Assembly (NCBI GenBank): GCA_016283195.1
Contig: JAEEML010000004.1
Span: forward strand, 1 to 49,416
DNA: 49,416 nucleotides
DNA from: Deltaproteobacteria bacterium
GTDB lineage: Bacteria; JAEEML01
Reading direction: 5' to 3'
Shown here piece by piece: positions 35,610 through 49,376 of this stretch (position 1 is its first letter; every line of letters starts with the position of its first letter). The translations under genes and the position numbers were made by a program. Under the pieces are notes generated by a model. The model was not told the origin of the DNA and searched no databases. It worked only from the letters and a program-made list of their open reading frames with translations.

Positions 35610-36596
35610 TTATGGGCACACGGAAAGTATGCCGGTGGAGTTGATACATAAAGGCCCGCTGGTGCCGCTTGCGGGTAAACTTTCGGGAGCTATACGCACA
35701 TTCAGCAGGTAATCAACTTCTTTTGAACCTTCTGGTTGCCCTTCATCAGTATCAATTTGCATGGAACCCAGACGTTTTATATCCGGTATATAAGTGCCAT
35801 TGGCGTTTTGCAGTACACTGACCTGTAGAAGAGAGCTACCAGCAATTTTAACATAAACTTTTATAATTTTTTTATTATCTTCGTAGCTTCCTTTAACATA
35901 AAAGCGTGTTTTATAATATTTTTCTCTAAATTTTCGGCCATCCAGCTGGGTAAAACGGGCTATAACATGATCACTGGAGAAATTATTAATATCTTGAGGA
36001 ACTTGATATTCTCCGCCTTGAACAAACAGAGTGCCCATTCTATTTTTGCCCTCATTATCGCGGTAAGTTATAAGCAATAAAAAACCGGCATAAGCAGGAT
36101 TAGGATCATTTCCGGGCTTGACTGTAAGTGTTCCTAGTTCATACCAGCCTGAATCCGTAATGACTTGCCTGGACAAGCTATCCGCCGTACCAGCTTTGCC
36201 GGCGCTATCGGCACTTTGGGCATGACCAGCTTCGGCGGCCTGGATGGCAAAAGGCACGGAGGAAACGGCAATGCGCGGAGTCATTTCGTCATCGTCACCA
36301 ACTTTGATGCCCAGTTCGATTTTGTCGGCGGCGACAATTTTATTTTTGTCGACACCGTCTATTGTGAAGTTGTAAAAGCCGTTTTCCACGGTAATATTTT
36401 TAGTAACCGCTTTAATAACTTCGCTGTTACCATCATAAAGAGTGGCCACAATTTTAACCTGTCCGTTCATTAATTCGCCATCTTCCCAGAGCAGGCCGTG
36501 GTGGGTAAAGCTCATGGGGACGGCGGCCATGGCCGATGAAGCTGCCAGCAGAAAGCCAAGAGTGGTAAGTGTCGTTAATAATTTTTTGCTCTTCAT
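35610..36596 (-). CDS. Secreted protein, conserved 'THHGLLW' N-domain with unique C-terminal domain (cassette 1)
   Basis: The 328-residue protein has a signal peptide ending ASSAMA-A. Residues ~25-125 are a domain shared with the cassette 2 protein at 44901-46298: 'VP.SFTHHGLLW', 'ELMNGQV', 'VTVENGFYN.TID', 'ELGIKVGD', 'EMTPRIA.SSVPFAI'. After a short linker ('AEAGHAQSADSAGKAGTAD'), the remaining ~190 residues are unrelated to the paralogue and rich in beta-like patterns ('TRFYVKGSYEDNKKIIKVYV'). No catalytic motif is seen. It should be exported to the periplasm or surface. It follows its lipoprotein partner (36615-37277) after 18 nt with 'aaaggaga' as ribosome-binding site. Confidence 0.8.
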   Translation of the reverse strand: MKSKKLLTTLTTLGFLLAASSAMAAVPMSFTHHGLLWEDGELMNGQVKIVATLYDGNSEVIKAVTKNITVENGFYNFTIDGVDKNKIVAADKIELGIKVGDDDEMTPRIAVSSVPFAIQAAEAGHAQSADSAGKAGTADSLSRQVITDSGWYELGTLTVKPGNDPNPAYAGFLLLITYRDNEGKNRMGTLFVQGGEYQVPQDINNFSSDHVIARFTQLDGRKFREKYYKTRFYVKGSYEDNKKIIKVYVKIAGSSLLQVSVLQNANGTYIPDIKRLGSMQIDTDEGQPEGSKEVDYLLNVRIAPESLPASGTSGPLCINSTGILSVCP

Positions 36597-36614
36597 TTTC
36601 TTCTCCTTTTAGCT

Positions 36615-37277
36615 CTACTTCCAAGAGCCATCGTTTACCTTAACTTCATGGGTGGAATCTTGAGCGCTGCCAGCCATGGAACCGCCTAAAACCTGCACTT
36701 TATAACGGTTGCTGCTGGCTTTGCCGGCAATATTGGTTAGAGTTGCTCCAGCCGGTAATTTTATTGGTGTTTCAGTAACAATTTCAGTGTTTTCCCGGCA
36801 AATATTCCCTTCACAGACTAGACCTTCGGCGCATTTATTTTGCTCATCGCAAGCTTCGCCTTTACCTCGCGGGTTGCTTGCTTTTAGGACACACTTCTTG
36901 TTTTGGCAGGTATAGTTGTCTTGGCAATCAGTATCGTTTTTGCAAGGTTTTTGGCAAATGCCGTCCAGGCATTCAAGGCCGCTTTCGCAGAGTATTTTAA
37001 GATCGCAGCTTTCGCCGTTTTTGCTCCTTGGTGTGGTATTTTTTACGCAGCGCTCATCTAGGCAGGAGGAATCATTAGGACAATCGCTGTTATCTTGGCA
37101 AACTTTTCGGCAAATGCCGTTTTCGCATAATAGGCCGGGCATACAGTCATGCTCGGCATCGCACTGGTCACCCAGTTGCCCGGTATTGCTTGGAGGCACA
37201 GGCTTATCCGGGCAACCAGTAAGCATGGTTAGAGCAACAATGGAGGGAGCAAGAATCAGGCGGGGGAAGAGTTTCAT
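36615..37277 (-). CDS. Cys-rich lipoprotein of cassette 1
   Basis: The start at 37277 (after 'gaggtg') gives a lipoprotein signal with lipobox LTGC; a longer frame from 37331 is rejected. The 220-residue product has three or four disulfide modules like 'CENGICRKVCQDNSDCPNDS' and ends in a conserved ~45-residue tail ('LPAGATLTNIAGKASSNRYK', then 'VQVLGGSMAGS' and 'VNDGSWK'). The same tail ends the cassette 2 lipoprotein at 44226-44882. The modules resemble those in the 5950-8421 protein. The tail, being the most conserved part, may be what contacts the partner or envelope. Function is unknown. Confidence 0.82.
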   Translation of the reverse strand: MKLFPRLILAPSIVALTMLTGCPDKPVPPSNTGQLGDQCDAEHDCMPGLLCENGICRKVCQDNSDCPNDSSCLDERCVKNTTPRSKNGESCDLKILCESGLECLDGICQKPCKNDTDCQDNYTCQNKKCVLKASNPRGKGEACDEQNKCAEGLVCEGNICRENTEIVTETPIKLPAGATLTNIAGKASSNRYKVQVLGGSMAGSAQDSTHEVKVNDGSWK

Positions 37278-41684: not shown

Positions 41685-42647
41685 ATGGCACAGGATTATT
41701 ATAAAACACTTGGCGTGGAAAAAAATGCCAGCGCCGATGAGATTAAAAAAGCCTATAGAAAACTGGCAATGAAATACCACCCCGACCGCGTGCCGGAGGC
41801 TAAAAAAGCCGAAGCGGAAGCCAAATTTAAGGAAATCAGCGAGGCTTATGCCGTGCTCTCCGATGATAAAAAGCGCCAGCAATATGATACCTTCGGCTCC
41901 GATAACTTTAGCCAGCACTTTAGCCAGCAGGATATCTTTAACAATGCTGATTTCAGCTTCTTGGGTGACCTTTTTGGCGGCGGCGGCAGTGATATTTTTA
42001 GCCGCCTTTTCGGCGGTATGGGCGGCTCCGGCCGGCGGGTAAATATCAATTTTGGTGGCGGAGGCGGCGATATATTCAGCTCCTTTAGTGGCGGCGGTTT
42101 TGGCTCTTCGGGGCGGGGAAACGCCGCCGGCTTTGGTCAGGAAGGGCGCAGTCAAAACAGTGCCACTACCGCCACTTTGGCTATCTCTTTTGAAGAGGCC
42201 GCTTTAGGCGCCGAAAAGTCTCTCACCATAAAAGATACGGCCGGCGGGCAAAGAACCATCAAAGTAAAAATCCCAGCCGGTATCGAAAGCGGGCAAAAGC
42301 TCAGAGTAAAAGGCAGCGGCGGGCGGCCGGATATGTATTTGGAAATAAATGTGCAAAAAAGCCCGATTTTTACCCGCGAGGGCAATAATGTCCATGTGCA
42401 AGTTAGAGCCTCTATTTGGGATCTTATCCTTGGCGGCGGAGTGGAAGTGCCGCTCATTGGCGCTCCGGGGCGGCGTATCAAGATAAAAGCCGGTACTCAG
42501 CCGGGTACGGTAATGCGCCTCGCCGGGCTGGGGATTGCGCCCAAGAGCGCGAGCCCCGGCGATTTGCTCGTGACTATAGAGGCGGCTATCCCGCCGCTTA
42601 GTGCGGAGCAAACGGAACTTTGTAAGAAGATAAGGGATAATAATTAA
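41685..42647 (+). CDS. cbpA: DnaJ-like co-chaperone without zinc finger (CbpA type)
   Basis: The 320-residue protein has an N-terminal J domain (residues 4-70) with the HPD motif at 32-34 that stimulates DnaK ATPase. A Gly/Phe-rich linker follows ('[19 protein letters not shown]'), then two C-terminal peptide-binding beta domains ('[18 protein letters not shown]', '[19 protein letters not shown]'). The CxxCxGxG zinc finger of DnaJ is missing, which makes it a class B/CbpA-type partner of DnaK. It begins after 'ggagga'. The last four bases overlap the converging HTH gene. No heat-shock promoter or CIRCE element is obvious upstream. Confidence 0.9.
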
Positions 42648-43288
42648 ATTTTTTCAAGCAGATCCTCCATGTCGCAGCCTAACGCCAGGGAAAGTTTATA
42701 AATCGTCTGCGCCTGAGCTTTGTCGATGTCGTTTACTCTCTGCTCATAAAGCTGGATGGAGTGCAGCCCCACTCCCGATGCAGCCGATAGTTCCGACTGG
42801 GAAAAGCCCCTGTTTGGGCGGATATTTTTCAAATTCGTGCTGATAGAGCGCTCCGCAATTTTTTTATCCATCGCCTCGATAAAAGCGGTTATGTCCATTT
42901 CGTGATAGACGCTATACATTTTTATTATCTCGGAAAGCGGAACTTTGCCGAAAATTGCCTTAAAACTCTTTGCCGCCTGCCACTGATACTGCGCCAAAGC
43001 CTAGCCTGCCCAGTATTCAGGCGATCGGTTTGGCGAGAACACAGCTTCCGGAAGCTTACGGCCCGGATCGACCTTTTCAACAATGGAGCGAACAAGTTCA
43101 ATTCCCGATTTTCCGGCGATAACCGAAGGGTTTCCACGGCCGAATTTGTCGCTTATGCCGGACACAATAAAGAGCTCGGCAAATTCATCTGGTTTGAAGC
43201 CGCAGCTATTTAGCGCATAATCAAAAGCGATTGCCAGCGAGCTTTCTGCACTACCCAAATAAAGTTCACTGTATGCGCGGATCGCCAT
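42644..43288 (-). pseudogene. HTH (XRE) antitoxin-like protein, interrupted by an in-frame amber codon
   Basis: Two frames, 43288-43001 (95 residues) and 42997-42644, lie in the same reading frame and are separated only by a TAG at 43001-43003 plus one codon. Read through, they give ~214 residues: an N-terminal domain ('AFDYALNSCGFKPDEFAELF', 'DKFGRGNP'), a middle 'SPEYWAG[*]ALAQYQWQAAKSF', 'YSVYHEMDI', and a C-terminal helix-turn-helix ('NRGFSQSELSAASGVGLHSI'). In relatives as I recall them, the stop position is a Trp, so TGG to TAG explains it. TAG ends several other genes here, so recoding is unlikely. The gene follows the DUF3990 gene (43340-43971) and may be its antitoxin/repressor. The two halves could still be made separately (TTG at 42995-42997). 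Confidence 0.75.
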
Positions 43289-43339: not shown

Positions 43340-43971
43340 CTAAATGACGAAGTTCATTTTTATAAGCCGCGCGCGCCTTGGCATACGCGCCGTGTATTTC
43401 TGGTAGTAAGTTTCGCACCTTACTGTTTCAGTACCGGCAAAAGTTAGCTGGCCGAAGGCTTTATCCGAAACGAGGGCATACTGAATGCCGAGTTTTCCCA
43501 GGCGCATCGCTTTTTCCAGGCTTGCCAGCGGCAGAGTGTTGTTGATGAAGTCTCTGGCAAAAGAAAAATAGGAGTCGTCTGCGCGGTAGCCAACGATTAC
43601 ATCAAAAGGAGCGGTATCAATAGCGAAGTTGTTTACAAGATATTCCTTGGCCGCCGCCGCAATTGCGTTTTCCAGCGAAAAATTCTGTTTTGCAGCAAGA
43701 TGGCTAGCCAATTCAGAACATTGTAACATTTGTCCTGCATATCGAGCACTTTAAGCCCGCTTTTTCTTAAACTGTATTTATTGACGAAACCATTGCTGTT
43801 TTCTCTGGAGGCCCACTCTTTGGCAACTTCGATCTCCTTGGTGCAGTAGAATCCCTGCCCGTAGTCGTTGTGTTTTTTCCCGGCTGCAAGAGTTGGTTTC
43901 TCAATGATTTTCGTTGAACCATGGATAAAATCATAATGCGGCTCCAATTTTGTATCACCATAATGATACAA
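43340..43971 (-). pseudogene. DUF3990 (ADP-ribosyltransferase-like) protein, frameshifted
   Basis: The first frame (43971 to ~43680) gives 'YDFIHGSTKIIEKPTLAAGK', then 'HNDYGQGFYCTKEIEVAKEW' and 'CYNVLNWLAILLQNRIF', the N-terminal half of DUF3990 with its 'HGS...GFY.T' signature. The family continues, one frame away, as 'IDTAPFDVIVGYRADDSYFS' and 'FARDFINNTLPLASLEKAMR' down to 43340. The switch falls at a run of five A on the plus strand (43678-43682); one missing base there explains it. DUF3990 is placed among ADP-ribosyltransferase-like folds and is often next to an HTH gene in toxin-antitoxin-like pairs. The start is uncertain: TTG at 43969-43971 or TTG at 43945-43947. A -1 ribosomal shift is possible but no canonical slippery heptamer is present. 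Confidence 0.75.
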
Positions 43972-43993
43972 TTTTTTGTATCATTGTGGTGAT
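43954..43993. promoter_or_regulatory. Long palindrome over the DUF3990 gene start (probable operator)
   Basis: Two 18-bp arms match at 17 of 18 positions (43954-43971 and 43976-43993) around a TTTT centre. Each arm contains TTGTATCAT and GGTGAT. The palindrome covers the first candidate start codon of the DUF3990 gene, the expected place for autorepression by the HTH protein. Confidence 0.65.
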
Positions 43994-44125
43994 ATTTTTG
44001 TCAAACATGGATGCGGATTAGAGGATATAACAATGTGTGCACTTGTTTTTTGCTGGTGCAAAAGCAGCAAAAAACAAATATTTGCGGGAAAAATGCAAAC
44101 TCTATCACATAATATGTCTTTTTAG

Positions 44126-44152
44126 TTGACTCAAAAAAAAAAAAAATAGACT
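44126..44152 (+). promoter_or_regulatory. Promoter of cassette 2 with a poly(A)14 tract in the spacer
   Basis: TTGACT (44126-44131, 5 of 6) is followed by C, fourteen A (44133-44146) and TAGACT (44147-44152, 4 of 6 to TATAAT), a 15-bp spacer. An alternative -10 TAATTT (44152-44157) gives 20 bp. A change of two or three A would bring either to the optimal 17. A dyad GTTAGA/TCTAAC (44160-44165 with 44179-44184) lies at the expected start of the transcript. Confidence 0.6.
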
Positions 44153-44225
44153 AATTTATGTTAGATTGTATCAAAACGTCTAACACTGGCATATTTAAGC
44201 CTTTAAACAGGCCGAGGAGGGCAAG

Positions 44226-44882
44226 ATGAGGCGGACAATCTTAGTAATGGGTGTCTTACTCTTACCGTTTTTGTTGAGCAGCTGTTCCGATAAACCGGAA
44301 CAGAATGTGCCGCGTACAAGAGGAGTTAGCGAAGCATGTGACGACACCAAAAATCTCTGTGTGGCCGGGCTATATTGCGACAACGGCAAATGCCGCGAAA
44401 TGTGCAACGAAAATGTTCCCTGCGGCAGTAATGAAAAATGCGTTGATAATCGCTGTTTGCCTTGGAGCAATCCTGGTAGCAACACCGATGAGCCGGGCAG
44501 TAACACTGATAATCCCGGTAGTAACACCGATGAGCCGGGCAGCAATACCGATCTTCCAGGCACGCAATCACTGGGCGATAATTGCGATGCGCAAAATAAA
44601 TGTGCTTCCGGCCTCTCCTGCCTTGGCGGCACTTGTCACCAAAACTGCCAAGATAGCGCAGAATGCCAAACAGGCGAAGAGTGTAGAAACAGTATGTGCC
44701 AATTGCCACAAATAGCCGGGGAAACAAACAAAGTAGCTCTGCCGGCCGGCGGCGGGCTCACTAATATGTCGGGAAAAGCCAGTGATGGCCGTTACAAAGT
44801 GCAAATTTTAGGCGGCTCCATTGCCGGTAGGTCTAAAGACAATAACAAATCAGTGCAACTTAACGATGGCGCCTGGAAATAG
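44226..44882 (+). CDS. Cys-rich lipoprotein of cassette 2
   Basis: The 218-residue product has a lipoprotein signal (lipobox LSSC) after the ribosome-binding site 'gaggaggg'. It carries disulfide modules ('CVAGLYCDNGKCREMC', 'CASGLSCLGGTCHQNCQDS'), a central linker of four tandem 7-residue units PGSNTDx, and the conserved C-terminal tail 'LPAGGGLTNMSGKASDGRYK', 'VQILGGSIAG', 'LNDGAWK'. The tail is shared with the cassette 1 lipoprotein at 36615-37277. It should be surface- or envelope-anchored. Production may switch with the poly(A) promoter. Its partner starts 18 nt after the stop, the same gap as in cassette 1. Confidence 0.85.
   Translation: MRRTILVMGVLLLPFLLSSCSDKPEQNVPRTRGVSEACDDTKNLCVAGLYCDNGKCREMCNENVPCGSNEKCVDNRCLPWSNPGSNTDEPGSNTDNPGSNTDEPGSNTDLPGTQSLGDNCDAQNKCASGLSCLGGTCHQNCQDSAECQTGEECRNSMCQLPQIAGETNKVALPAGGGLTNMSGKASDGRYKVQILGGSIAGRSKDNNKSVQLNDGAWK
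44472..44555 (+). repeat. Four 21-bp tandem repeats in the cassette 2 lipoprotein gene
   Basis: Four in-frame 21-bp units (44472, 44493, 44514, 44535) each encode P-G-S-N-T-D-x with x = E, N, E, L. The units differ by several silent changes. They form a flexible linker whose length could vary by recombination. Cassette 1 lacks them. Confidence 0.85.
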
Positions 44883-44900: not shown

Positions 44901-46298
44901 ATGAAAAAGAGTGTATTAACAGGTCTCACAGCTCTAGGGCTCTTGCTTGGAAGTAGTACCTTGGCCAGTGCCGCCGTGCCACTTTCCTTTACTCATCACG
45001 GCCTGCTTTGGGACGGCGATGAGCTGATGAATGGCCAGGTAAATATTACCGCCACCATTTACAAGAGCAAGAGTGCTTCTGCCGTGGCTATTAAGGAAGT
45101 TACCAAACAGGTTACTGTGGAAAATGGATTTTATAACCTCACCATAGACGATATTGATCCGGAAGCCATTATTGCCGCCGATGGCAAAATGGAGCTCGGC
45201 ATTAAAGTTGGTGATGGTAATGAAATGACGCCGCGCATAGCTATCTCCTCAGTGCCGTTTGCTATTTTGGCTGCTCATGCCGATAGTGCAAGTACAGCCA
45301 CTACAGCCGAGACAGCCGGGGGGTTAATTTGTGACCGTTGTGTTGGTGAAGAATTACTTTCTGCCGAACTCGCACAACAATTGGCTAATAGTGGTAATAC
45401 CAGTGGTGACTTAGTGGTTGCTAATAATTCCATTACTACTGAGATGATTCAAAATGGTGCTGTCACCAAGGACAAAGTAAACTTCAATTATGCCGGCTCC
45501 AGCAGCAAAGGTGGTTCGGCTACCAGCGCTGTTAAATTAGATACTGCTACCGCTGGTACTGCGGCAAAGCCTGTTTATTTTACAGGTGGTAAACCGGAAG
45601 TTGTCACCAGCATTGATAGCAGCTTAATCTCTGGTATTAAGCCAGCGAATTTGGATAAAACAGCAATGCTTGACTACCTCTATCCTGTTGGTTCTATTTA
45701 TATTTCTGTCTCTTCTAACAATCCGAGCACCCATCTTGGTGGAACGTGGGAACAAATAAAGGATAGATTTATGCTGGCTGCCGGTACAACATACGCTGCT
45801 GGAAGTACTGGTGGCAGTGCTACTGTCAGTCATACTCATACCGTAACTGGTACTAATTCCGCAGTAACACTCACTTCAAGTCATATTCCTCAGCATACTC
45901 ATACTTTTTCAGGAACTGCCGCTACTATAACCGTAACCGGTGGTAGCCATTCACATACTATATTTGCAAACACTAATGGCAGTCCTGACGGACAGGGTGA
46001 TCATAATGCCAGTACCGGTCCGAATCGCTACTGGAATGGAGCTAAGGTACAAAACCAAAATGGTAGTGTATATTCAAATCCTTATAGTGGTAGTAATACT
46101 TCTAACACCAAACCTCTAACAGATGTTTCAGGTTCTTTGTCTCTGTCAGGTTCTTATACTCCCAAAGGAACACTTTCCTCTTACGGTTCCGCTTCACCAA
46201 GTTCTCATACCCACACTTTTTCAGGCACTGCAGCTTCAACAAGTGTTAGCAATATGCCGCCGTACCTCGTCGTTTATGTCTGGAAACGCACCAAGTAA
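44901..46298 (+). CDS. Secreted 'THHGLLW' protein with phage tail-collar-like C-terminus (cassette 2)
   Basis: The 465-residue protein has a signal peptide (ending ASA-A) and the ~100-residue N-domain shared with 35610-36596. Residues ~130-250 resemble tail-fibre shaft sequence ('NNSITTEMIQNGAVTKDKVN', 'GGSATSAVKLDTATAGTAAK'). From residue ~253 it follows the pattern of phage baseplate/tail-collar proteins: 'YPVGSIYISVSSNNPSTHLG', 'GTWEQIKDRFMLAAG', repeated H-T-H ('SHTHTVTG', 'QHTHTFSG', 'SSHTHTFSG') and the end 'MPPYLVVYVWKRTK'. In phages this tip trimerises, binds metal through His and contacts receptors. Here it is joined to a Sec-type signal and a bacterial domain, with no phage genes around, so it is probably a surface fibre or adhesin. 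Confidence 0.85.
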   Translation: MKKSVLTGLTALGLLLGSSTLASAAVPLSFTHHGLLWDGDELMNGQVNITATIYKSKSASAVAIKEVTKQVTVENGFYNLTIDDIDPEAIIAADGKMELGIKVGDGNEMTPRIAISSVPFAILAAHADSASTATTAETAGGLICDRCVGEELLSAELAQQLANSGNTSGDLVVANNSITTEMIQNGAVTKDKVNFNYAGSSSKGGSATSAVKLDTATAGTAAKPVYFTGGKPEVVTSIDSSLISGIKPANLDKTAMLDYLYPVGSIYISVSSNNPSTHLGGTWEQIKDRFMLAAGTTYAAGSTGGSATVSHTHTVTGTNSAVTLTSSHIPQHTHTFSGTAATITVTGGSHSHTIFANTNGSPDGQGDHNASTGPNRYWNGAKVQNQNGSVYSNPYSGSNTSNTKPLTDVSGSLSLSGSYTPKGTLSSYGSASPSSHTHTFSGTAASTSVSNMPPYLVVYVWKRTK

Positions 46299-46637: not shown

Positions 46638-46705
46638 CTTTGTTAAAACCACACAAAATGCGTTAAAGACTCATAATTACAACTGGTTATATGCTTTTTG
46701 AAGTT

Positions 46706-46721
46706 TGGCACGCAATTTGCA
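46706..46721 (+). promoter_or_regulatory. Consensus sigma-54 (-24/-12) promoter
   Basis: TGGCACG-N4-TTGCA (46706-46712, 46717-46721) matches the sigma-54 consensus TGGCACG-N4-TTGCW at every position, with GG and GC ten bases apart. Transcription would start near 46732, 33 bp before the Rpn start at 46765. Confidence 0.8.
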
Positions 46722-46764
46722 TTCAGATTGGCCGGCCAGACTATCTGGCAAAAAGGAGCTATTT

Positions 46765-47865
46765 ATGCGCATTCGAGTTACTAATGATGTCATCTTTCGT
46801 GCCCTCTTTGGCAACCCGGCCCACAAAGAGGTTCTCCTGGCCCTTATCAATGCTGTTTTTGACGACAGCGGCTCGGAACTCATTAAAAGTATCGAGATTA
46901 TCTCGCCTTATAACCTGCCGGAGGTCTATAGCGACAAAGAGAGCATTTGCGATATCAAAGCCATAAGTGAAAGCGGAAAGATTATCGACATCGAAATGCA
47001 GGTTTTGCGAAGGGCCGATTATATCGACCGCTCCCTTTATTACTGCGCCCATAATTTAAGCTCGCAGCTTAAAAGAAGCGAATCTTATAGCGAACTGCAC
47101 CAGGTAATCTGCATCAGCATTTTGGATTTTGACCTCTTCCCCGACGATGAAGAGCCGCACCACACCGCCCAGATGGTGGACCGCATAACCGGCGAGCCCC
47201 TAAGTGAAAAGATGACTATTCACTTTCTGGAGCTCCAAAAAGCGGAAAAATATGCTAATATTACGGCCGAACTTGCCGCCTGGGTGCGCTTTTTTGCTCA
47301 TGCGCACGAGGAGGATTACATGGAGAGCGCGGTTTCGGCCATCGGTGAGGCCCATAGCTTTTACCTTGAACTACTGAACAACACCAAGCTGGTGGGAATT
47401 GCTGCCGATCGTGAACGGGCCTATCGTGACTGGATATCGCTGATTAAGAATAAGGAAAAGGATGATAAGAGAATAGCCGAAGCTAAGCAGGAAATTGCCA
47501 AAGATAAGCGGGAAATAGCCAAAGATAAGCAGGAAATAGCTGAAGCCAAGAAAGAAATAACTGAAGCCAAGGAAGAAATAGCTGAAGCTAAGGAAGAAAT
47601 AGCCGAAGCTAAGGAAGAAATAGCCGAAGCCGAGCAGAAAATAGCCAAGGATAAGCAGGAGATAGCCAAGGACAAGAAAGAACTGGACTTAATTCGTATT
47701 CAGCTTGGGCAGGGACAAGCTGAATTGAAAAATCAAAAACAGCTTGTTTACGATCAAGGAAAACATGAGAAAGCCGTGACTCTGGCCAAAAAATTCATGG
47801 CTCTAGGCCACAGTAAAGAAGAAGCCGCGAAATTTGCGGAAATTGATGTGAAATTGCTTGATTAG
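46765..47865 (+). CDS. Rpn-family recombination-promoting nuclease/putative transposase (PD-(D/E)XK)
   Basis: The start at 46765 follows 'aaaaggagct'; an upstream frame from 46705 overlaps the sigma-54 promoter and is rejected. The 366-residue protein starts 'MRIRVTNDVIFRALFGNPAH', continues 'ALINAVF', and has the nuclease core 'CDIKAISESGKIIDIEMQV' (D...ExQ) followed by 'RSLYYCAHNLSSQLKRSESY', all typical of Rpn/PD-(D/E)XK transposase-like proteins. Residues ~237-306 form a coiled coil of ten 7-residue repeats. The C-terminus 'KKFMALGHSKEEAAKFAEID' is the usual family tail. Rpn proteins are Ca-stimulated DNA endonucleases that raise recombination; recent work also ties some to phage defence. 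The sigma-54 promoter makes regulation specific rather than constitutive. Confidence 0.88.
   Translation: MRIRVTNDVIFRALFGNPAHKEVLLALINAVFDDSGSELIKSIEIISPYNLPEVYSDKESICDIKAISESGKIIDIEMQVLRRADYIDRSLYYCAHNLSSQLKRSESYSELHQVICISILDFDLFPDDEEPHHTAQMVDRITGEPLSEKMTIHFLELQKAEKYANITAELAAWVRFFAHAHEEDYMESAVSAIGEAHSFYLELLNNTKLVGIAADRERAYRDWISLIKNKEKDDKRIAEAKQEIAKDKREIAKDKQEIAEAKKEITEAKEEIAEAKEEIAEAKEEIAEAEQKIAKDKQEIAKDKKELDLIRIQLGQGQAELKNQKQLVYDQGKHEKAVTLAKKFMALGHSKEEAAKFAEIDVKLLD
47473..47682 (+). repeat. Ten 21-bp tandem repeats in the Rpn coiled coil
   Basis: Exactly ten 21-bp units run from 47473 to 47682, each encoding I-A-E-A-K-E-E or I-A-K-D-K-Q-E type heptads (one unit starts I-T). The heptad spacing is that of a long helix with Ile/Ala at the core. 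Near-identical middle units, for example 'gaagctaaggaagaaatagc' repeated around 47580-47630, suggest recent expansion. Confidence 0.9.
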
Positions 47866-48095: not shown

Positions 48096-48470
48096 ATGCT
48101 AAGTCAGTATATGAAAGAGTTGCGGGAAGAGATTCTAAAAGAGTATGAATTAGGAGTTTATGGTTACCGGTTGCTAGCGAAGCGGTACGGACTAAAGCGA
48201 GATACCGTCAGGGATTGGGTTAGAGCAGCTCGCAAAAAAGGAAACACAGTGGGAAAGCCAAAAGCAAAACTTAACAGGGAAAAGCCTAAAGATATAAAGC
48301 AAATGACTCGTGAAGAGCTTGAAGAAGAGCTTGATCTATCCAGGCATGCTGCTGACTTTTGGGAGTTTTACGCCAAGGAGCTACTTGAACAAATAAAAGA
48401 AGAAAGTAAAAAAAAGTGCAATTGGAACTCTCGACAAATACTGTCAACAAAAGAAAGTAAGCGTCAATAA
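48096..48470 (+). CDS. IS3-family OrfA (HTH transposase subunit)
   Basis: The 124-residue product carries an N-terminal helix-turn-helix ('YELGVYGYRLLAKRYGLKRD', 'TVRDWVRAARKKG') and a C-terminal leucine-zipper-like helix ('MTREELEEELDLSRHAADFW'), as IS150-type OrfA proteins do. OrfA binds the terminal inverted repeats and helps form OrfAB. Near its end is a run of eight A followed by G (48408-48416), containing A-AAA-AAG, the classical IS3 slippage site. A -1 shift there meets a stop after 14 codons, however, while the orfB frame is reached by +1 (or loss of one A). Confidence 0.85.
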   Translation: MLSQYMKELREEILKEYELGVYGYRLLAKRYGLKRDTVRDWVRAARKKGNTVGKPKAKLNREKPKDIKQMTREELEEELDLSRHAADFWEFYAKELLEQIKEESKKKCNWNSRQILSTKESKRQ

Positions 48471-48471
48471 G

Positions 48472-49376
48472 ATGTGTAAGGCTGTTAAAATTCCTCGTTC
48501 ATCTTTTTATTACAACCGGATGTCGACAGCGCATCGGGAAGCCAAGGATAAAGAAGTTCTGGAAGCAGTAATGCAACTTAATCCGTTGGAAATAAAAAAG
48601 GCTGGAGCGAAGCATAAAGCGCAAATTTTGAAGAAACAAGGCAAAGTAGTGAATCATAAGCGGCTAGCCAGAATTTGCAAAGAAGCCTAGAAACCACAAA
48701 CAGGCGACGCAAGTTTCCTAAAAACTATTATCAAATCTTAAAAGAAAACGAGAAAAATCTACCTAAAAACGAATTGAATCGTGATTTTAAGGCTTCTGAA
48801 CCGCTAAAGAAATTATGTACCGATGTTTCATATTTCAAAGTTAAAGAAGGTTGGCTTTATCTGAGTCCGATTTTGGATTTGCATGATCAATCGATAGCGG
48901 TTTATAAAATATCGCCTAATATAGACAGTAAACTCGCATGCGATACGCTCTCAGAGTTAGTTACCAAATACAAATTGCAGGATGCCATGATTCATTCTGA
49001 CCAAGGTGCGATTTACAAAGACAAAACTTACCGCAAATTCTTTAAAAACGCTGAAACAACAAGCGCTTCAGAAAGTAATAATTACGTGCCGACAGATAAG
49101 AAACTACCGGATAAAAATGATAAAAAGTATCAAAAAGCTTTAAAGCAAGCCAAGAAGTGCAATCTCATACAGAGTATGAGCCGCAAGGGTAACTGCTGGG
49201 ATAATGCCTGTATAGAACGATTCTTCGGAAGTATAAAATCGGAAACCGACTACTATGAAACACTTAAAAATGGATTACTTACTTATAAGGAAATGGAAAA
49301 AGTAATTACCGATTACATCGAATATTATAATAAGTTACGAATTCAGAAAAAGCTCAACTGGTTGTCCCCCTGTTGA
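48472..49376 (+). pseudogene. IS3-family OrfB (DDE transposase), frameshifted
   Basis: The first part (48472-48690, open in frame upstream to about 48405) contains 'MCKAVKIPRSSFYYNR' and the HTH_21 segment 'GKVVNHKRLARICKEA', then hits TAG. The rest continues in another frame from about 48675 ('SLETTNRRRKFPKNYYQ'). It holds the DDE residues: D in 'LCTDVSYF', D in 'IHSDQGAIY' and E in 'WDNACIERFFGSIKSE'. Loss of one base (or four) near 48685 explains the break. Between the second D and the E is an extra ~35-residue Lys/Ser-rich segment ('ETTSASESNNYVPTDKKLPD') not present in standard IS3 enzymes. The gene ends at 49376, 35 bp from the IS end. Confidence 0.8.

Follow-up and report, generated by a model that had tools for sequence, protein, structure and literature searches.

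A poly(A) promoter spacer ahead of a lipoprotein operon as a candidate phase-variable switch, with counterparts across the genome of a Deltaproteobacteria bacterium

Can a run of 14 adenines that fills the spacer of a promoter, upstream of a predicted surface lipoprotein and a fibre-like protein, act as a length-variable switch of transcription? We addressed this question in a 49,416-nucleotide stretch of a Deltaproteobacteria bacterium (contig JAEEML010000004.1, hereafter the window), together with the rest of its genome, a 3.22-Mb draft assembly of 190 contigs. C-numbers denote the contigs of this genome, C82 being that of the window, and families I and II are promoter types. The first-pass annotation of the window had placed TTGACT and TAGACT 15 bp apart around a pure A14, and inspection of the sequence confirms this exactly: the spacer is made up of C at 44132 and of A14 at 44133-44146, between TTGACT (44126-44131) and TAGACT (44147-44152). 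The ATG of the lipoprotein gene (44226) follows 79 bp after the tract's end, and the tract is the sole A or T run of at least 9 in the 49-kb window. Phase variation of spacer length by slipped-strand mispairing is, on comparison of sequences, the most likely reading of the tract, with a probability of about 0.78. The elements of the promoter are as follows.

44118..44125, + strand: conserved block CTTTTTAG, adjoining the -35 hexamer and marking a sharp left boundary of the promoter module common to the siblings
44126..44131, + strand: -35 hexamer TTGACT, kept in 10 of 10 family I loci compared (TTGACC in C47)
44133..44146, + strand: poly(A)14, the proposed slippage switch; siblings have A14 (C3), A15 (C22) or interrupted A11TA4 (C122)
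44147..44152, + strand: -10 hexamer TAGACT; TAGACT, TAGAAT or TAGACC in 9 of 10 siblings, with a spacer of 13-17 bp, mostly 15-17
44160..44184, + strand: inverted repeat GTTAG-N15-CTAAC, beginning 7 nucleotides past the -10, where transcription is expected to start

Pattern searches of the whole genome identified 11 A-tracts of at least 10, among which five reach at least 13: A14 in C82 (the window), A14 in C3, A15 in C22, A14 in C99 and A13 in C169. All five are flanked by TTGAC plus 0-3 bases and by TAG, and each time the downstream product carries a lipobox; outside these five, there is no A-tract above A11 in the genome. The six tracts of A10-11 are terminator-like in C68, C104 and C158 and coding in C102; that of C95 abuts the TTGACA -35 of another lipoprotein gene and that of C122 is an interrupted family I spacer. 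From a rough extrapolation of the run-length distribution of the window, some 0.25-1.3 tracts of at least 13 A's would be expected per genome, and the chance of such TTGAC (0-3 nucleotides)/TAG flanks on one tract is about 2e-5, also a rough figure. Common ancestry links three of the five tracts. The placement of the tracts between TTGAC and TAG is not due to chance. They belong to three promoter types without common flanks, namely family I (C82, C3 and C22), C169 and C99. The same architecture with at least 12 A's was sought in 385 other bacterial genomes, which hold three matches in total, all in low-G+C genomes, against five in this genome alone; a reversed control pattern gave 0 matches in this genome. 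The claim that the window holds a candidate phase-variable promoter is strengthened by a genome-wide set of five such promoters. A side observation concerns a TTGAC-A16-TAGTAT sequence (L180 1501-1523; G243:C1:486804) from a genome of 0.8 Mb, at a locus of 23% G+C. It precedes a long open reading frame (ORF) that stays open only if TGA is translated as Trp, and is perhaps a further spacer tract, of a mollicute-like genome.

The siblings of the window promoter indicate what its normal spacing may be. The family I module reads CTTTTTAG-TTGACT-spacer-TAGACT-7 nucleotides-GTTAG..CTAAC, and CTTTTTAGTTGACTC occurs in the genome exactly at 7 places and with one mismatch at 3 others. Nine family I loci align as -35, spacer and -10, with TTGAC(T/C) and TAGA(C/A)(T/C) kept and the spacer sequence differing; the tenth, C176, has no -10 at the aligned distance, and C104 and C96 hold the left part of the module only. 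The pure poly(A) spacers measure 15 bp in C82, 15 bp in C3 and 16 bp in C22, the others 17 bp in C122 (A11TA4), 16 bp in C33, C121 and C58, 15 bp in C47 and 13 bp in C128. Constant hexamers around a changing spacer sequence are what one expects of a promoter, and they bear out the assignment of -35 and -10 made in the first-pass annotation. The suggestion that the present length is off the optimum also fits: 15 bp in the window compares with 16 in three non-homopolymer siblings and in the unrelated promoter of C79 (TTGACT-16-TAGAAT), with 17 in one sibling and with 15 in one. As the commonest spacing of the stable members is 16 bp, the window is one base short, and the comparison of sibling sequences supports both the promoter call and this reading of the present length. 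In family II, the spacer of C169 is TC-A13 (15 bp) and that of C8 is TC-A8-TAATAA (16 bp), in sequences that are near-identical on either side.

The homology between siblings starts 6-14 bases 5' of the -35 in most pairs and extends to about +45 (about +26 in C128), and it holds despite diverged (C22) or different (C128) downstream genes. The GTTAG-N14..16-CTAAC arms are invariant in 8 siblings, 6-8 nucleotides from the -10. In most leaders this inverted repeat folds into a hairpin (weak z-scores, 0.2 to -2.2); it may be a 5'-terminal mRNA hairpin or an operator. The window promoter is absent from a simple sigma-70 scan because the latter takes 16-18 bp spacers only. ACTAAT, at 18 bp, was considered as another -10 and dropped, the siblings conserving TAGACT and not ACTAAT, and a terminator origin of the window tract was rejected, no hairpin adjoining it, unlike some A10-11 tracts (C68, C104, C158).

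Long pure mononucleotide runs slip in replication. In Neisseria meningitidis porA and Treponema pallidum tp0126, the length of a homopolymer between the -35 and the -10 sets their distance, with the best transcription at 17 bp, and one-base changes in the porA tract alter transcription (PMC7864442, PMC3899988); a 17-bp optimum is likewise given for the tp0126 promoter (PMC7864442). One added A raises the transcription of N. meningitidis nspA, 5A being compared with 6A (PMC6389960). Spacer-length phase variation is the likeliest reading here because long runs slip and because one-base tract changes alter transcription of porA, tp0126 and nspA. In a promoter of the housekeeping (sigma-70-like) type, the A14 would serve as a spacer of variable length: slipped-strand mispairing would add or remove single A's, and the distance between -35 and -10 would shift about an optimum of some 16-17 bp. 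Transcription of the lipoprotein and fibre operon would thereby rise or fall, heritably yet reversibly. The same device would operate at four further lipoprotein promoters, related promoters keeping interrupted, stable spacers, so that the set of surface lipoproteins in a population would be combinatorial and vary stochastically. A useful rate of slippage and the control of transcription by length are the parts of this scheme that we infer. The present A14 plausibly corresponds to a reduced or low-expression state, since 16 bp would need A15, though a 15-bp spacer may be only partly impaired.

Several observations weigh against such a switch. The closest copies, C82 and C3, both have A14 and thus show no length difference between them; C47, which has no homopolymer, also has a 15-bp spacer and C128 one of 13 bp, so that a spacer of this length need not mean an off state in the window. 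The genome encodes a MutS homologue, and slippage may therefore be rarer than in repair-deficient organisms. No second strain of the species was found among the genomes, viral contigs and plasmids searched.

The presence of MutS also favours the view, unlikely in our judgement, that the tract is a static element, a rigid or curved A-tract spacer that tunes promoter strength or binds a regulator, its length having no functional variation. The A-rich, interrupted spacers of related promoters (C33, C128 and C121) argue in the same direction, as they would make an A-rich spacer ancestral. However, these same interrupted spacers serve without purity, whereas pure runs reach 13-15 at these lipoprotein promoters alone; it is long pure runs that are prone to slippage, and the length in C22 differs from that in C3 and C82. 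Alternatively, A-rich spacers could have mutated into homopolymers by neutral drift and been copied with duplication of the module, with no selected switching. Three of the five tracts do lie in one duplicated module, and those of the window and of C3, identical at 113 of 115 positions, carry the same A14. Yet C169 and C99 gained the same structure separately, and the other tracts, terminator ones included, end at A11, which leaves drift improbable. An assembly or sequencing artefact, by which the tract or its length would be wrong, is least probable of all: a draft of 190 contigs invites the suspicion and homopolymer lengths are error-prone, but the five loci share one functional position throughout in differing contexts, and the architecture would survive a miscount of one or two A's.

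What the promoter would switch agrees with the earlier description of the operon as one encoding a lipoprotein and a fibre-like protein, which are predicted surface or secreted products.

44215..44220, + strand: ribosome-binding site AGGAGG, by inspection
44226..44882, + strand: lipoprotein gene, 218 amino acids, Cys-rich, with lipobox LSSC
44901..46298, + strand: gene of a fibre-like secreted protein, 465 amino acids, with a signal peptide and Gp10_C at residues 256-464

The two genes are 18 bp apart. The lipoprotein matched no Pfam family, and it contains an in-frame repeat of four 21-bp units (GSNTDxP) at 44469-44552. The fibre-like protein has the Gp10_C domain, a phage-baseplate/fibre C-terminal domain (Pfam E 5.7e-19), with phage tail families also matched and a weak match to the T4 Gp10 structure 2fkk. 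Relatives of the operon are scarce. This genome alone represents its phylum among the genomes compared; 58 other bacterial genomes gave one lipoprotein match, weak and partial, and the viral contigs and plasmids searched held no copy. A scan of genome contigs matched chiefly the Gp10_C domain, in unrelated bacteria, and the N-terminal domain of the fibre-like protein has only distant relatives elsewhere (24-42% identity).

Within the genome, lipoprotein paralogues share one common poly(A)-spacer module in C82, C3 and C22, and in interrupted form in C122; the 21-bp repeats, four in the window lipoprotein, are three in the C3 paralogue. The mature lipoproteins of C22 and C24 (L078, L081) are closely similar, with 85.6% DNA identity over 1,112 bp starting within the gene, but the promoter is of the poly(A) type in C22 only, C24 having a different promoter and signal peptide. 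Such likeness under different promoters suggests that coding sequence has been exchanged, as it appears from sequence, between switchable and fixed promoters. The lipoprotein and fibre genes of this pair both reach contig ends, which suggests that recombining repeats broke the assembly. In C68, an operon of the same lipoprotein family has an (AG)13 array 131 bp before the ATG, the only array of at least (AG)7 in the genome. It lies between TTGCA and TACATT (L082 1339-1364; C68:38838-38863); if these were the -35 and -10, the spacer would be about 25 bp, far off the optimum. The family II lipoproteins (L141/L125; C8, C169) contain a poly-Asn stretch, its codons being AAC/AAT repeats (almost pure AAC in C8), which differs in length between copies (13 vs 15 Asn). 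Whether the five poly(A) promoters, the (AG)13 array, the in-frame repeats and the coding exchange (C22 vs C24) together make up a genome-wide, multi-locus system of surface switching, a separately evolved, combinatorial, Vlp-like antigenic or phage-receptor variation, is in our estimate an even bet.

The surroundings of the operon in the window hold further features. A second lipoprotein and fibre operon of the same family (36186-37262, - strand) has an unrelated promoter without an A-tract. A DUF3990 gene (43340-43971, - strand) is present as two overlapping frames, covering profile positions 5-91 and 90-152, and is frameshifted, or else the assembly carries an indel around 43700. A small ORF and a helix-turn-helix (HTH) gene of Cro/C1 type (43001-43288 and 42644-42997) come after the DUF3990 gene, in an arrangement that resembles a toxin-antitoxin operon. 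A 20-pair inverted repeat, GTATCACCATAATGATAC...GTATCATTGTGGTGATAT (43952-43995), which could be an operator or a terminator, lies between DUF3990 and the poly(A) promoter. On the 3' side of the poly(A) operon, a PDDEXK_2 family transposase-like gene (46705-47865, + strand) is followed by an IS3-like element (48096-49376, + strand) with an HTH ORF, a short ORF and an rve ORF.

By analogy, the window promoter seems to match known spacer switches in kind, above all the mycoplasma vlp promoters. In Mycoplasma hyorhinis, a poly(A) tract lies between the -35 and the -10 of several paralogous lipoprotein genes, the coding regions of which carry variable in-frame repeats. The likeness extends to both traits, the poly(A) spacer at several lipoprotein paralogues and the in-frame coding repeats. 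The present system differs in that the host is unrelated, with 41-50% G+C in the window and a MutS, that the loci are on different contigs and that the operon also encodes a fibre-like protein with Gp10_C; the likeness is one of promoter design, and no kinship of the lipoproteins to Vlp is claimed. M. hyorhinis figures among the phase-variable promoter repeats listed in a published account (PMC3899988). Other systems are more remote. The porA and tp0126 promoters also have a homopolymer between the -35 and the -10, but it is poly(G) and the products are other outer-membrane proteins, and the 5 vs 6 A's of nspA are strain alleles with no long hypermutable run. Promoter repeat length alters transcription of surface structures through the C-stretch of Bordetella pertussis fim2, fim3 and fimX and the TA repeats of Haemophilus influenzae hifA/hifB (PMC1891110, PMC3899988). 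The fim tracts, however, are proposed to act on the distance between activator and promoter, and hif has a divergent promoter with a dinucleotide repeat.

The best-known cases of lipoprotein switching by a poly(A) promoter spacer come from mycoplasmas, which lack a cell wall and have A+T-rich genomes. This design appears several times in the present genome, that of an unrelated bacterium of balanced base composition which is otherwise without an A run above 11. As switchable and interrupted siblings coexist in one genome, the roles of spacer length and of tract purity are open to direct comparison, and metagenome reads of the species would reveal whether its surface varies in nature.
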